Source of the DNA: a virus
DNA length: 25,049 nt
Strand: one strand, 5' to 3'
IMG/VR virus record: IMGVR_UViG_3300021347_000032
Location: 1-25,049 of that record
The notes beneath the pieces were generated by a model. The model was not told the DNA's origin, made no database searches, and saw only the letters and a list, made by a program, of their open reading frames with translations. The translations under genes were made by a program, and so were the position numbers. Shown here piece by piece: positions 1-22,148 of the stretch (positions within the stretch are counted from its first letter, which is position 1; each line of letters starts with the position of its first letter).

Positions 1-2647
1 TCCTCACGGCTTCATTAGAAGCTGTTCTCTTTGCATCTGCTTTCTGAAGTTTATTTGTAAATCCAAATGTTTTCTTAAACTGACTGGATGCTAACCCTTT
101 CTCTTCAAAATCAAAAGGTATTTGATCGTCTGCGTTTGATTTAAAATCGTTTATACCCGCTACTCCTTTAGTAGCAAGATTCATAGCTGATTCAAGAATA
201 CCCCCCTCTACAGAAGCAGAAAACAATTTTGCTCCACCAGTTCCTCCGGGTTGGCCCAACCTTTTAATTTCTTTATTTATATTGGCTAACTCATCATTAC
301 CAAAAGTTTTACCTATTATTCCTTGAGCATACTGAACCAGTGGACTCGCGAATATCTTAGCAAGTTGAGTTCTATTACTTTTTTCTGTAATTTCGGAATT
401 ACGTTTAAAATCATCAAGTGATTTGATTTGAATTCCCTTAAATTTTATATTGCTTACACCAGCAGCTGCTAATTGCCCAGCTAACTTGCTACTTAATTGA
501 CTGGGGGCAGTGCTAGAGTCCGCAGTCTTTTTACCTTTAAATAGCGAGGCTACACCAAAAATTCTAGCAGGAATATCTAAAGTTGTGCGTTTATTTTTTG
601 CATTGCGATCAAAAACATTTTTAGCTTGGGCTTCAGTAACTTTCACGCCATCTATGATCCTTGTTTTTCCTGCTCCACTAAGCGCTCTAAATTGAGTCAT
701 ACTAGTTATACCCGATCCACTTAAAGCTCCAGCAGGCCCAATAGCATAGTTGGGAATATAACCACTAGCAGCTCTCACCTTCCTAGCGTTAGAAGGAAGA
801 CCCATTGAAGAAACCATGTTTTGATTGAATATGGCGTCTCCACCATTAGCATAATTAGGAACAATATATTCACTACTATTAGCAACCATTGTCCCCCGCT
901 TACCACCACCAAATGCAAAGTTAGGGATTACAACAGGTTTTGCAGAAGCAGGTGCGCCGCCCACACCTCTGGTGATGTCAGAGCTTTCAGCTCCGATTGG
1001 TAAGAAACCTCCGGCAGCTCTTCTGCCACGTCTAGAGGCGGTTCCAGCCATGACACCGGGAGCAACAGTTGCAGCAATACCTTGCATTTTCTGCATAAGC
1101 ATTAATTGCTCGTTCAAAGCTTTCGTGAAAAACTGGGTCTGTAACTTCTTCTTTTCCCCTTCTGATATGTTCTGTTTTTCAATCGACAAGATAGCACTTC
1201 TGATACCTTTATCATTTAAAAGCGATGCAGCTATCTGACCCTGCAAAGCTGCTTGAGCTTCGGCGGCTCTATTCAAACCAAAGAAAGTTTTTAATGCGCC
1301 CGCTCCAAACTTAGCAAAATCTAAAAGAAGTTTTCCAATCGCAACCAAAGCTAAAGCTAACCCCGGTCCAGCAATTATAGTACTAATACCTTTTATCAAT
1401 CCCTTAGCAAATGTAGATCCTATGCCATCACCATCTAAAACATTTTGAATGGTACTCACTACACTATTAAAGACTCCAATAATTTTAGATAAATTCTCAG
1501 TAACACCTATCTCACCCAAAGTGTTTGCTAATTCTTTTAGGTTTACAGTTGCAGTATTAACTGAGGCAGCTAAAGTTTTAGCTAAAACCGCATTACGGTC
1601 GTAAGCTTCAGAAGTAGCGTTTAAGGATGTGTTGGCTACTTCACCGCTTCTTGAGATTTTTTGATTAAAGTCTTCAAGCAAAGCTAGGAAAGGTGCGATC
1701 TGAAACTTGCCAACGAGATTATCTGCTAGATTAACTCTTGAAGCCTGATCTAATTTCGCAAATGTTGGAGCTAGATTCTCAATAATTTTATTAGAGGATA
1801 GAACCCTGCCTTCTAAGTCTGTAACTTCGACGCCTAACCTTTGGATAGACTGGAGCCTGTCTAAATCTTGAATTCTAACGAAAATTGTTTTGAGAGAGTT
1901 TCCTATAACAGCTCCACCACGCGCAGTTTTTTCTTGAAGTGCGGAAATTATACCAATCAATTCATCAAACTGCACACCAGAAGCGACAGCAACAGCTCCA
2001 GAACGTTTTAAACCCTCAATCAAATCCCTATCAGAAACCGCAGCACTTGCGGCGGCAGCAGAGATCTTATTAAGAACGTCAGAAGTTGTTAGGCCAGCGC
2101 TTGAAAAAGAGTTTACCGCAGCAGTTAGTCCAGCTACAGAATCTGCAGCACTTAAACCGGAAAGACGAGAAAGAACAAGGGCGTCATTAAGTCTTTTGGT
2201 AACTTCTTCAGCTTTAAGACCTTGACGAGACAGCTCCAAAGCTGCTTCTGCTACAGTATCAAACGTCTGCCCTGTATTTCGGGCTATATCGAATATCTGA
2301 TTTTTAAAACTATTGAGTTGAGATTCTGACTGCTTTAGAATTGAGTTTATATTAGCTAAGCTTTTTTCAACCTGAATAGTCGTAGTAACCAATTGTTTTA
2401 ATCCGTTTGATACGGCAGCAATAACCCCAACAGAAGCTCCAAATGCCAAAACACGGGCGTTAGCCGCCTCCATAGATTTTGTAAACTCATCTGCCTTACC
2501 AGTTAAGCGTCCTAAAGGTCTAGAAAGAGACTCAATACTCTTAGCTCCCGGACCCATATTGATCCTCATATTCTTACCAACTTTTGTGGCCGCTTGTTGA
2601 ATACTTTTCTCTAAACCTGTTTGGACGACTGGTACTTGAATGGGCAT
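1..2647 (-). CDS. Tail tape measure protein, TP901 family (partial, C-terminus beyond the window)
   Basis: Sets tail length and lies inside the tail tube; in related phages it is ejected into the cell with the DNA. The frame is open from an ATG at 2647 to the window edge (882 codons). AAGGAA lies 7 bases upstream. Residues about 145-260 look like the TP901/PhageMin_Tail core: an alternating helical stretch with SGLSAADSVAGL and ARGGAVIGNSLKTIF. A hydrophobic, glycine-rich stretch at about 410-450 could be the membrane-active segment usual in tape measures. Residues 571-635 carry three [IV]PN[FY]A motifs (IPNFAFGGG, IVPNYANGG, YIPNYAIG). The part after about 800 (ILESAMN, FDFEEKG, ADAKRT) resembles the spacing of a PD-(D/E)XK nuclease; this is inference. 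It follows two chaperone-like genes, the normal tape-measure context. Confidence 0.9.
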   Translation of the reverse strand, partial: MPIQVPVVQTGLEKSIQQAATKVGKNMRINMGPGAKSIESLSRPLGRLTGKADEFTKSMEAANARVLAFGASVGVIAAVSNGLKQLVTTTIQVEKSLANINSILKQSESQLNSFKNQIFDIARNTGQTFDTVAEAALELSRQGLKAEEVTKRLNDALVLSRLSGLSAADSVAGLTAAVNSFSSAGLTTSDVLNKISAAAASAAVSDRDLIEGLKRSGAVAVASGVQFDELIGIISALQEKTARGGAVIGNSLKTIFVRIQDLDRLQSIQRLGVEVTDLEGRVLSSNKIIENLAPTFAKLDQASRVNLADNLVGKFQIAPFLALLEDFNQKISRSGEVANTSLNATSEAYDRNAVLAKTLAASVNTATVNLKELANTLGEIGVTENLSKIIGVFNSVVSTIQNVLDGDGIGSTFAKGLIKGISTIIAGPGLALALVAIGKLLLDFAKFGAGALKTFFGLNRAAEAQAALQGQIAASLLNDKGIRSAILSIEKQNISEGEKKKLQTQFFTKALNEQLMLMQKMQGIAATVAPGVMAGTASRRGRRAAGGFLPIGAESSDITRGVGGAPASAKPVVIPNFAFGGGKRGTMVANSSEYIVPNYANGGDAIFNQNMVSSMGLPSNARKVRAASGYIPNYAIGPAGALSGSGITSMTQFRALSGAGKTRIIDGVKVTEAQAKNVFDRNAKNKRTTLDIPARIFGVASLFKGKKTADSSTAPSQLSSKLAGQLAAAGVSNIKFKGIQIKSLDDFKRNSEITEKSNRTQLAKIFASPLVQYAQGIIGKTFGNDELANINKEIKRLGQPGGTGGAKLFSASVEGGILESAMNLATKGVAGINDFKSNADDQIPFDFEEKGLASSQFKKTFGFTNKLQKADAKRTASNEAVR

Positions 2648-14462: not shown

Positions 14463-16325
14463 AGAAATAAACATTGGGGTGAATGTTTCTGTAACATCAG
14501 ACCCCTGATCGTCTAACATATCGAAGTATACATTCATGCCCCAGTTACCCAATATTAAAGCGGAATAAGAGTCTTTTCGGGCTTTGTCAGCCCCTCTCTG
14601 CTTACGAAGGTTGGGTGGTAAATCAAAACTTTGTGTCCCTTGTGGTGAAGTCGTAACTTGTACCAAAGCGCATTGGACTTTTATAAGATCCATCATATCT
14701 CTTTGGTGTTCTACAAAATCAATCATCTTGGCCCCTTTGTTTTTTTCTTCAACATCTTGGTTCCTCAAGAATTTAAGCTTTTCAATAGGAATATTAGCTT
14801 TTCTTTGCATGTTGTAGTTGTCATCCATAGCTGCCCCAGCAAAATAAATCCTCTTGTGATCAAATGCAGATTGCAGACTCTCATTAGCGAAACGAATCCA
14901 TGTAGAACTAGGCTTCCTTAAAAACACAAATTTTCTCTTTGACTTATCTAATGTTCTCTTGAGTTGTCTAATACCCTTAGCATAATCTTTCGGGTTATCT
15001 AAATCAGCCTCAACAGTATCTATTTTTAAATTTAATTTTTTAAATATACCACTTTCTTTACACGCACTCAGAAATTGGACGCCTCCATTGTAGTCACCCA
15101 CAACCATTTCAATATTAAAGTGAGTTAGTAGGTAAGCCATGTACCTAATGTGTGTTTGAAGGTTTGACCCAGAAACAGCGTAGCTATGCACTACAACGCC
15201 TTTCCTCGTCTCTGGGTGGATCTTTATCAAAAGTATAGCGAAATCGTCTGAGCTTTCACTCTCAGACCAAGAAGGGTCAAATGCGAGGATGTATTTAGAG
15301 TTTGGTTCACCAATAACTTCCACACACTGCCCTTCCCCGTCAGGAATAGTACATACAGCCATTTTACTAACTTTGAAGTATCCAGAGCTGTCATCCGTAA
15401 ACACAGCTCCAAACTCTCGATCAAACTGAGACTGACTCATTGTTGATTTAGATTGGTTAATTAAATTTTGGTCATATAGTTGTGGAGGCGCACAATCATA
15501 ACTAAAATGCATAATAACCCTATGAGCGCCATCTTGTTTATTCTCATTAATTATTAAGGATTCATATTGTTGATATAACTTATACAAATATTCGAATTTA
15601 TACGATGCTGATGATAAACCAATAATTTTGTTGTTTGGCCAACGGGTTCTTTCCTCTTCCGTCATTTCACCCTCTTCGATCATTTTAGTTTCAAGGTCGT
15701 AGACTTCTTGCCTTTCTGTAGGGTTTTCAACAACAGATAGGAATGGCATGATAACCTCATTATAAATCTTTTCGGGCATCAGGAGAAGCTCATCTATGAT
15801 CATTCTCTGGAATCGGAAGCCTCGCAACTTTTCTCCGTCTCCCAGAGGTAAAGCTCTAATACTGCTAGTGCCTATCTCCATAACCCACTCATCATTCATT
15901 TTTGATGTCCTTGTAATACATTGAGACAAAAATTCAGCCTTGGGGCTTTTTGCAATATCCTCAATTTTCTTAAAGATCATCTTGGACTGACGGAATGATT
16001 TCGATATAATCCCTATCTGTACACCTTGATTCATTATGGCGTCGAGAATAGCAAACACAGCAGTAGAGAATGACTTACTCATACCTCGACTCCATATCCC
16101 TAAAAAATAATCAGTTTCCATCATAGACTTAATAGCCATATGCTGGAACGGGAATAACTTTACACCTGTAAACAATTCAGATGTAAAAGATGGATTCTCT
16201 CTAAGAAACTTATATAAAAGAAGCTTAGCCTCGCTTTCTTCGATGTAACCTTCTTTGGAAAGTATCTCTTCGTTTACTTCTTTGAACTTCCTGTAAAGGT
16301 TCTGGTTGCCTTCTATCCAAGCCAT
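14460..16325 (-). CDS. terL: Terminase large subunit
   Basis: 621 residues. It is the ATP-driven motor and headful or site-specific nuclease that packages DNA through the portal. The ATPase domain has an adenine-binding region (FPFQHMAIKSM), a Walker A variant SRGMSKSF at 79-86, a hydrophobic Walker B MIIDE at 175-179, and the coupling motif GLSSAS at 236-241. The RNase H-like nuclease begins at ILAFDPSWS (Asp350), with a second acidic motif in VVGDYNGG. The Walker A carries Ser rather than Gly-Lys-Thr spacing typical of classic P-loops, as in many T4-like terminases. The start overlaps the upstream nuclease gene by 101 bases in a different frame; no later start keeps the N-terminal ATPase region intact. 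Confidence 0.95.
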   Translation of the reverse strand: MAWIEGNQNLYRKFKEVNEEILSKEGYIEESEAKLLLYKFLRENPSFTSELFTGVKLFPFQHMAIKSMMETDYFLGIWSRGMSKSFSTAVFAILDAIMNQGVQIGIISKSFRQSKMIFKKIEDIAKSPKAEFLSQCITRTSKMNDEWVMEIGTSSIRALPLGDGEKLRGFRFQRMIIDELLLMPEKIYNEVIMPFLSVVENPTERQEVYDLETKMIEEGEMTEEERTRWPNNKIIGLSSASYKFEYLYKLYQQYESLIINENKQDGAHRVIMHFSYDCAPPQLYDQNLINQSKSTMSQSQFDREFGAVFTDDSSGYFKVSKMAVCTIPDGEGQCVEVIGEPNSKYILAFDPSWSESESSDDFAILLIKIHPETRKGVVVHSYAVSGSNLQTHIRYMAYLLTHFNIEMVVGDYNGGVQFLSACKESGIFKKLNLKIDTVEADLDNPKDYAKGIRQLKRTLDKSKRKFVFLRKPSSTWIRFANESLQSAFDHKRIYFAGAAMDDNYNMQRKANIPIEKLKFLRNQDVEEKNKGAKMIDFVEHQRDMMDLIKVQCALVQVTTSPQGTQSFDLPPNLRKQRGADKARKDSYSALILGNWGMNVYFDMLDDQGSDVTETFTPMFIS

Positions 16326-17241
16326 TTTTTTCTAATTCTCTTTCCCAAAAATATTGCAAGTCAACATTCCACAGTTTCTTACCACAGCAGAGGATCTTGG
16401 GTATTAACTCCTCACTGCCTTCTCTAGATCCGCTAAACACAAATTGGCAACAATCACTAAATTGTGCTTCAATGGATCTCATTCTGCTAAATACAAATCC
16501 CATATTGAATTTCTTATAAGCAGCACTATTTGTTTTATAAATTTTATTATAATCAGCCTCAACAACAATAAATAAGAAACACCCCAAACTTTGACATCTT
16601 TCTATCTCACGAATAAACCTAGCATAACCATTTGTCACGGTAGCCGCAAAATCTTGAAATGATTTTCTCTCTGCATGAGTGTAAGTGTAGTTTTTTGGGG
16701 GCAGAGTGTAATCTCCAAAATCCAGCTTAAAAACAGTAGATTTTTTAAAATTTAAAGGTTTATTCTCTCTTGTGTCTATCCACACCTCTTCGTCGCTGTA
16801 ATCTTCAAAAAATTCTTTACATACATTCTTTCCATACGCAGGACTTACCCCTACTTGCTCACAGAATGCGTTGTAACCGCCGAACAGCTTTTTTATGACT
16901 TCTAGCGTAGGCCAGTCGCCCGTCTTCAAATACAGGCTCGATGGAGCGTGTTTGAGGTTCTTCTTTTCTATTCTTTTTTTGAACTTCTCCAAAATATATT
17001 TTTTCACTTCATCTTTAGGCGCTTTCTCAAACCAGAGGTTCATGTTTCTGGTTGAGTTAAAATCTGTAGAGAAGTACCTCTTTGCGTCTTTGAATTCGAT
17101 AGGTTTCTCAGTCAGCCTATCGAAACGTGGATAGTGTTTGACATAGTAGTCGCCAAGCAGCATATCGTGCTTCTTGATGTGCATATGCAGACCACGTTGC
17201 GTATCGAACGTCTTCCCGCACTCTTTACATTCAAATTGCAT
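16225..17241 (-). CDS. C2H2 zinc-finger plus ERCC4-type nuclease
   Basis: 338 residues. Residues 5-25 form a perfect C2H2 finger (C-X2-C-X12-H-X3-H, CKECGKTFDTQRGLHMHIKKH in outline). Residues 150-270 carry the XPF/ERCC4 nuclease signature: IDTRE (Asp156), FGDYTL (176-180), and AERKSFQDF with the Glu191-Arg192-Lys193 and Asp197 core. These enzymes cut branched or structured DNA. The gene is coupled to the upstream gene by an 11-base overlap and runs 101 bases into the large terminase, with an arginine-rich C-terminus in the overlap. Its position inside the packaging operon suggests trimming of branched replicative DNA before packaging, or a free-standing homing-type endonuclease. The catalytic signature is clear; the role is inference. 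Confidence 0.85.
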   Translation of the reverse strand: MQFECKECGKTFDTQRGLHMHIKKHDMLLGDYYVKHYPRFDRLTEKPIEFKDAKRYFSTDFNSTRNMNLWFEKAPKDEVKKYILEKFKKRIEKKNLKHAPSSLYLKTGDWPTLEVIKKLFGGYNAFCEQVGVSPAYGKNVCKEFFEDYSDEEVWIDTRENKPLNFKKSTVFKLDFGDYTLPPKNYTYTHAERKSFQDFAATVTNGYARFIREIERCQSLGCFLFIVVEADYNKIYKTNSAAYKKFNMGFVFSRMRSIEAQFSDCCQFVFSGSREGSEELIPKILCCGKKLWNVDLQYFWERELEKNGLDRRQPEPLQEVQRSKRRDTFQRRLHRRKRG

Positions 17242-20896: not shown

Positions 20897-20906
20897 TATG
20901 TTACAC
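20897..20906 (-). promoter_or_regulatory. Late box GTGTAACATA before the second tail-tube-like gene
   Basis: Minus strand GTGTAACATA, then AAGT and the ATG at 20892, the same 4-base spacing as the adaptor gene. It overlaps the stop codon of the HNH gene. Confidence 0.55.
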
Positions 20907-22148
20907 TTTTTGTTGACCAAAATCCATGTCAGGAAATATTTCTGCTATTTTTTTGAAATGCTTTTCAATTTCTTTAGGGTCAACTTTATTACCTCTAGCG
21001 ATATTCTCAATACCCGATAACGGCCTCAAGTTCGTATAGTGATTCGGCCCCATCCCTTCAAAATAAGTAGGTAGTAAGTTCTTCTCTTCTTTCCACTTAG
21101 ATATAGGGATAAGATGATCCACATGCCAGCAATCCTGATGATCTAAGTTCTCACCAGCACCCTTATTATCCCAATTCATCCACTCACCATATATGACAAA
21201 CTGCTTCTCCAAATATCTTTTCACACCTTTTGTGTTCATCCCCACATCTTTAGTCTCCGCTTTGATATCTCCATCTACAACCTCACCGAGCCTTTTCCGT
21301 AAGTTTTTAAAAATTCTTCGTTCGGGGGCGGCTTCATATTTTTTTCTTGCCGCTTTACCAGCTGGACTTTTATTGTACTCTCTTCCCTTAGCTTTAAGAG
21401 CCTCACAGTTTTCTTCGTATCTTTTTTTGGTCCTTTTTTTTACGCAATCTAAACATTCGTTAGACCTGCGTCCCCTGTCTTTATATTCATAAAAATCCAA
21501 CCAACTTTTGATTTCCCCGCATTTGGTACACGGTTTATTTTTTTTTGTTTTATTATCCCCAAATTTAGGCTTACCATCAGATCCGAAGATAACATAACCT
21601 AAATCGAACAGTTCTGAAATTCTATCGTCAGATAATTCGTGTATTTTTCCTTTACCCATATACCCCATATAATCACCCGCACGATTTTTAATGTGATTCA
21701 AAAGACGTTCAAAATCAGGTTTGGTTATATACGGTCTAATTTCTAAATGTATACCTATGATACTAGGAGCTTTTATTGTTTTTAGGAAGTTTGGATTTTT
21801 ATTTTTAATTACATCTTTTGCTCGTTTGCTAAACTCTCCCCCATCCGATTCACTGCTTATAATACCTTTTTGCTTTAAAATCTGAGCGGCTTCATACAGA
21901 AACAAAATATCATCTCTCTTTATTTCTGAGCTGCCCCAAAACTCCGCATCAATAATTTCTTTATAAGGGGCTAATACCACCCTAATTTGATCACCCTGCC
22001 GCCCAGTCACACTATCCTCCCTGAAACATTCGGGGCAAATATTTTGATTAATTTTAACTTCCTTCTTATAAACCACATCATCTGTGATTTTTTGCTCAAT
22101 TATAAACGTCTTTCTCTCTTTCTCTTCTCCACAGATAATACAACACAT
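20901..22148 (-). CDS. HNH endonuclease with zinc-binding cysteine pairs
   Basis: 415 residues. The C-terminal 80 residues hold a clear HNH nuclease: CWHVDHLIPISKW (His342, Asp344, His345), then TNLRPLSGIEN and GNK. Residues 1-41 have CIICG and CPEC pairs, and about 205-235 has CTKCG and CLDC, two probable zinc ribbons that may aid DNA recognition. A Lys/Arg-rich linker precedes the nuclease. Free-standing HNH genes of this form are common mobile endonucleases in phages; a packaging-associated nicking role is also known for HNH proteins near terminases, but this one is distant. TATAAT lies 6 bases before the ATG, with AGGA between. Confidence 0.92.
   Translation of the reverse strand: MCCIICGEEKERKTFIIEQKITDDVVYKKEVKINQNICPECFREDSVTGRQGDQIRVVLAPYKEIIDAEFWGSSEIKRDDILFLYEAAQILKQKGIISSESDGGEFSKRAKDVIKNKNPNFLKTIKAPSIIGIHLEIRPYITKPDFERLLNHIKNRAGDYMGYMGKGKIHELSDDRISELFDLGYVIFGSDGKPKFGDNKTKKNKPCTKCGEIKSWLDFYEYKDRGRRSNECLDCVKKRTKKRYEENCEALKAKGREYNKSPAGKAARKKYEAAPERRIFKNLRKRLGEVVDGDIKAETKDVGMNTKGVKRYLEKQFVIYGEWMNWDNKGAGENLDHQDCWHVDHLIPISKWKEEKNLLPTYFEGMGPNHYTNLRPLSGIENIARGNKVDPKEIEKHFKKIAEIFPDMDFGQQKV

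Follow-up and report, generated by a model that had tools for sequence, protein, structure and literature searches.

In this uncultivated phage, the tape measure protein has a swappable cassette which we believe to be a metal-dependent PD-(D/E)XK-like nuclease, putatively injected with the tape measure. We would put the probability of this reading at about 0.6. The DNA analysed (the window) is an entire virus record of 25,049 bases, and the tape measure gene runs off one end of it. The gene is recognizable as a long open reading frame among tail genes with a TP901/PhageMin_Tail core. An earlier note on this DNA had placed that core in the same protein as the PN[FY]A repeats, which we confirm with a PF10145 match and three repeats at residues 572-637. 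The residues it picked out, E819, D846, D871 and K873, also sit as described (window 29-193, minus strand). Table 1 gives the coordinates.

Table 1. Features of the tape measure gene in the window, and profile-matched cassettes of related loci. Counts are of aligned domains among the matches listed.
Feature	Position	Strand	Basis or remark
Tape measure protein gene	2..2647	-	882 aa visible, open at record end; open frame, PF10145 and 14 PHROG tape-measure families
PhageMin_Tail (TP901-type) core	1709..2284 (residues 122-313)	-	PF10145, E=8e-26
Repeat 1, VVIPNFAFG	908..934 (residues 572-580)	-	Sequence
Repeat 2, EYIVPNYANG	842..871 (residues 593-602)	-	Sequence
Repeat 3, GYIPNYAIG	737..763 (residues 629-637)	-	Divergence point of near-identical sister tape measures
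Exchangeable cassette	2..736 (residues 638-882), end outside window	-	Boundary from comparison with relatives
Nuclease-like domain	2..592 (residues 686-882)	-	85% identity to L003, family alignments, models
G815	203..205	-	Invariant across family except one N
E819, predicted active-site Glu, in helix (GGILESAMN)	191..193	-	E/D 156/156 (E 151, D 5)
D846, predicted active-site Asp (FDFEE)	110..112	-	D 156/157, E in one
D871-A-K873, (D/E)xK motif on predicted strand (ADAKRT)	29..37 (D871 35-37, K873 29-31)	-	D/E 157/157, K 157/157
SNase, PolyA_pol/tRNA-nucleotidyltransferase and GNAT cassettes	L101:8760-9341; L192:7578-8981; L219, L144, L012		Profile matches

Two other open reading frames of the window resemble nucleases. 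The one at 16225-17241 (minus strand), which adjoins a terminase-like gene, has an N-terminal zinc-finger-like motif and IDTRE...LDFGDY...ERKSF, and is an ERCC4-type nuclease look-alike. The one at 20901-22148 (minus strand) has paired Cys motifs and HVDHLIP...N and is an apparent HNH endonuclease.

The nearest relative of the window, locus L003, has a complete tape measure of 2316 residues. The window region corresponds to about residues 685-911 of it. After this region come GYIPNFA, a segment of about 50 residues, a second IPNFA and then about 1350 more residues, so the domain is internal, between PN[FY]A repeats, and not at the C-terminal side where it had been placed before. The window copy has about 25-30 C-terminal residues fewer than that of L003. 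Near its C-terminus the L003 tape measure also has VPAMLSGGEFVMN-type segments similar to the PNFA block (SEYIVPNYANGGDAIFN), a likeness which suggests that the linkers derive from one common tape measure motif.

This region is a module that is exchanged between tape measures. Sister tape measures are 81-89% identical up to about residue 640, and beyond it they have unrelated-looking versions of the cassette. Three of them (L023, L060 and L108) share 87-88% of the core residues with the window tape measure and are near-identical to it through the second linker, but after the third linker identity falls from about 96% to about 20%, and none has a BLAST match in the cassette. Among themselves, the sisters return to 70-96% identity at the downstream GYIPNFA...IPNFA island. 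The comparison with L003 goes the other way: the core is 68% identical with a dS of 1.22, whereas the cassette is 85% identical (over 153 aa of its core) with a dS of 0.38. Synonymous differences between the two fall twice along the gene, at residue 561 and from residue 681 on. These contrasts between core and cassette mean that the cassette moves independently of its carrier. It is under purifying selection, with a dN/dS of 0.27 against L003, and all of its versions keep the catalytic-type residue set despite the swapping.

The breakpoints are located at the PNFA repeats, so the linkers are likely the regions of crossover. Residues 561-600 of the linker block have 93-94% DNA identity to L003, L108 and L023. 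As a whole, the block (window 737-934) is conserved better than any other stretch when distant tape measures are compared, and recombination or processing may take place there. A survey of mosaicism in phage proteins could not confirm recent mosaicism in tape measures (PMC10684548). Judged from these alignments, the present family is a clear case of it.

It is important to realize that the motif means little in the window by itself. The pattern E-x(18-29)-D-x(20-32)-[DE]xK starts twice in residues 701-882, compared with 0.39 starts in shuffled sequences, and 9% of the shuffles reach 2. The earlier note had relied on the order and distances of these residues; the distances in a single sequence are no better than chance, so relatives are needed to weigh the motif. 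We scanned IMG/VR for the linkers GYIPNFA, GYVPNFA and GYIPNYA, which gave at least 245 ORFs, and ran iterated HMM searches seeded with the L003 domain after removing its linker tail. The rounds gave 78 and then 158 domain matches among those listed, 157 of them with the motif columns aligned. The family has at least 157 domains in at least 149 ORFs of uncultivated-phage tape measures, at least nine of which have two copies. Mean column identity across it is only about 12% in a MAFFT alignment of 100 members, and the nuclease-type residues nevertheless hardly vary, in contrast to the drift of the other columns (Table 1). The residue sets are GEDDK in 99, GEDEK in 50 and GDDDK in five of the matches listed. 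The same motif columns come out of plain MAFFT alignments of 65 and of 100 members in which the HMM had no part. The significance of the motif comes only from this conservation over 157 homologous domains (among the matches listed), and the alignments support Glu - Asp - (Asp/Glu)-x-Lys as the predicted active-site set of a large unnamed family. A chance resemblance in sequence under little constraint would fit the shuffles of the window alone, but the 157-fold invariance in the family alignment contradicts it, as do the ordered models presented below, and we give it almost no credence.

The same alignments bear on whether the cassette is a structural or tail-length module without catalysis. 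The carrier is the length-determining protein and catalysis is only predicted, which would fit this idea. However, conservation is highest in the columns G, F/Y, E/D, D, D/E and K, and the sole invariant positions are catalytic-type charged residues, one glycine and one aromatic position. The length of the cassette also varies between closely related tape measures. We consider such a module very unlikely.

The family is unnamed in Pfam, PHROGs, NCBIfam and PADLOC, where, as with PDB sequences, there were only scattered weak matches to single members, such as PADLOC REase_II at 0.0068 in one of 100. With tblastn, cultured phages had no match to the cassette or to the downstream linker segment. 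A search for the linker in 84,980 genomes of bacteria and archaea turned up four PNFA tape measures on assembly contigs, and three of these have the domain. Among 8247 ORFs (80 aa or longer) of the loci fetched from the matches listed, we saw no copy of the domain outside PNFA tape measures; since the loci were fetched by linker motif, the linkage of domain to linker is by construction, but the presence of the domain is not.

We then ask what kind of enzyme this would be. AlphaFold2 models of the L003 domain (pLDDT 86.3, pTM 0.77) and of the L018 domain (pLDDT 85.3, pTM 0.75) both show an ordered alpha/beta domain, not the helical or disordered region that would have spoken against a nuclease. 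A strand meander at the N-terminus is followed by two helices and then by the helix with the G and the E, residues 128-152 in the first model and 91-110 in the second. After it come a very short D strand of two residues, a helix, the (D/E)xK strand and another helix. A helix with G-x-x-(F/Y)-E, then D, then a strand with (D/E)xK is the usual order in PD-(D/E)XK nucleases. The predicted domain has the acidic residue in its first core helix (E or D in 156 of 156 among the matches listed), an Asp on the short strand, and (D/E)xK on a strand further along.

The likeness to the PD-(D/E)XK superfamily (Mrr, NERD, UPF0102, RecB-like) is thus in the helix Glu, the strand Asp and the strand (D/E)xK followed by a helix. 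The differences are in the predicted arrangement. The superfamily has its motif strands adjacent in an alpha-beta-beta-beta-alpha-beta core. Both alpha/beta models put a helix between the D and the (D/E)xK strands, an order that differs from the usual D - (D/E)xK hairpin. The D-to-K spacing, mostly 22-30 residues, is longer than usual for PD-(D/E)XK, and the cassette has a three-stranded N-terminal meander before its helices and sits inside a tape measure. Despite two confident models, no PD-(D/E)XK chain appears in the Foldseek or VIA listings of either. For L003, Foldseek (pdb, viral) and VIA-align gave a best E of 0.3 and a best Z of 4.4, the latter on a helical stretch only; for L018 the best E was 1.2 and the best Z 3.3. 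In pairwise hhalign runs against Mrr, RecB-like, UPF0102 and NERD nothing scored above reversed controls, but this comparison is uninformative because these four known families did not find one another either. What stands of the earlier proposal of a PD-(D/E)XK domain is the active-site set. The motifs are placed as in PD-(D/E)XK, but with the inserted helix and no convincing neighbour in the PDB we say that the cassette works like such a nuclease, not that it is a member. The models support the active-site reading; membership in the classical fold is not established.

Cassettes with a shorter D-to-(E)xK spacing and more of the classical PD-(D/E)XK hairpin look are seen at L163:2970-3584, L115:5910-6545, L158:2165-2773 and L058:1102-1668. 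None of these four is known in PHROGs. They could be the link from the family to known nucleases.

The nuclease-like domain is one of several domains found between these linkers, and others among them are recognisable as enzymes. PNFA-bounded cassettes match SNase (PF00565, 1.9e-9), PolyA_pol/tRNA-nucleotidyltransferase (PF01743, 9.4e-15; phrog_2244, 8e-58) and GNAT (1.7e-4), and a P-loop cassette between linkers matches AAA_30 (3.3e-4). Some tape measures of the family hold at least two cassettes, including the SNase, PolyA_pol and GNAT types; the window protein, cut by the edge, shows one. By eye we also noticed motifs that are HAD-like (YDWDGTI; L070:853-1281, L040:2209-2718), P-loop (GPAGSGKST; L200:6388-6858), metallopeptidase-like (HEMGH; L168:2575-3222), possibly ADP-ribosyltransferase-like (LYRG; L140, L166, L184) and kinase-like (L055, L007), as well as further E-D-ExK cassettes between linkers.

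It could be argued that the cassette is no nuclease but some other metal-dependent enzyme, in which the same residues occur in a different fold or serve a different chemistry, as in another phosphodiesterase or an RNA-modifying enzyme. The searches gave no fold neighbour for either model, both have the helix between the motif strands, and other cassettes of these tape measures have non-nuclease chemistry, all of which this idea would accommodate. The order of helix G-x-x-(F/Y)-E, D and strand (D/E)xK is nevertheless typical of PD-(D/E)XK, and we judge another chemistry to be unlikely, though worth keeping in mind.

We infer the nuclease activity, the entry into the cell and the target, the second from tape measure biology, and think it likely that the cassette is a nuclease which enters the host cell upon infection. 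Its acidic residues would hold Mg2+ or Mn2+, and the lysine would activate water for phosphodiester cleavage. The cassette would travel in the tail tube and leave it with the tape measure before the DNA does, and the putative nuclease would act at or inside the membrane while the DNA enters. Tape measures are known to get as far as the inner membrane; crosslinks of one of them to SNIPE, a host defence nuclease, have been observed (PMC13190303). The target of the cassette would probably not be the same in all lineages; candidates are the DNA or RNA of the host, a plasmid or prophage resident in it, and a competing phage. Swapping of the cassette around a constant catalytic set would make sense with a target or an inhibitor that varies among hosts or competitors. 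One point against any nuclease is that it would have to stay silent in the cell that produces it.

The enzyme might instead act on the phage's own genome, either on its leading end or on DNA leaving the head. The tape measure lies in the tail tube beside the leading end of the phage genome. Essential nucleases are also known in phage virions, T4 gp4 being one as cited in PMC7824862. However, a housekeeping role would not need repeated swaps to versions without BLAST similarity. It also fits poorly with the detection of a copy in 80 of the 118 PNFA ORFs longer than 1800 aa (among the matches listed), which leaves about one third without a detected copy, although by eye some of these contain weaker versions. 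A role on the phage genome seems quite unlikely to us.

An injected PD-(D/E)XK-like nuclease would be one case of something broader. Slightly short of an even bet, in our opinion, is that in a large group of uncultivated phages the tape measures are polymorphic effector carriers, whose linker-swapped cassettes, mostly of this undescribed nuclease family, are delivered at DNA entry and perhaps released at the linkers. If this is true, many uncultivated phages have as their longest protein one that is a ruler, a channel and also a delivery vehicle for exchangeable enzymes, and the cassette enzymes are among the earliest phage proteins to arrive in the cell. There is then also an unnamed and testable family of putative nucleases with a known active site, and GYIPNFA is a marker for finding more cassettes. 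That enzyme cassettes are exchanged between PN[FY]A linkers in a family of tape measures appears to be new to the literature we searched. That literature, with preprints absent and few subscription papers, had no case of a phage tape measure with a nuclease or effector domain, only effectors of contractile injection systems.

Besides the PD-(D/E)XK superfamily, three known systems are close to what we describe. Polymorphic toxin systems (PMC3482391) also exchange toxin cassettes by recombination on a constant carrier, and such exchange is what the window tape measure and its relatives display. Here, in contrast, the cassette is internal and is carried by a tail protein of a phage; among the flanking genes of L003, read by eye, we saw no immunity gene. 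Polyvalent proteins, described for phages and conjugative elements (Iyer et al. 2017, PMC5512222), combine unrelated enzyme domains, several in a single virion protein that is proposed to be injected, and the cassettes of the present family are in that style. Tape measures are not mentioned in that paper, whereas here the tape measure is the carrier and the domains lie between PN[FY]A linkers. The third is Tme from the contractile injection system of Streptomyces davawensis (PMC11126660), an effector that is related to tape measures and has an active endonuclease domain at its C-terminus; we take it as a precedent. Both put a nuclease domain, predicted in our case, on a tape-measure-like protein. 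But Tme has a C-terminal EndA-type (DRGH) endonuclease and belongs to a contractile injection system, whereas the phage cassette is an internal E-D-(D/E)xK domain swapped between repeats.
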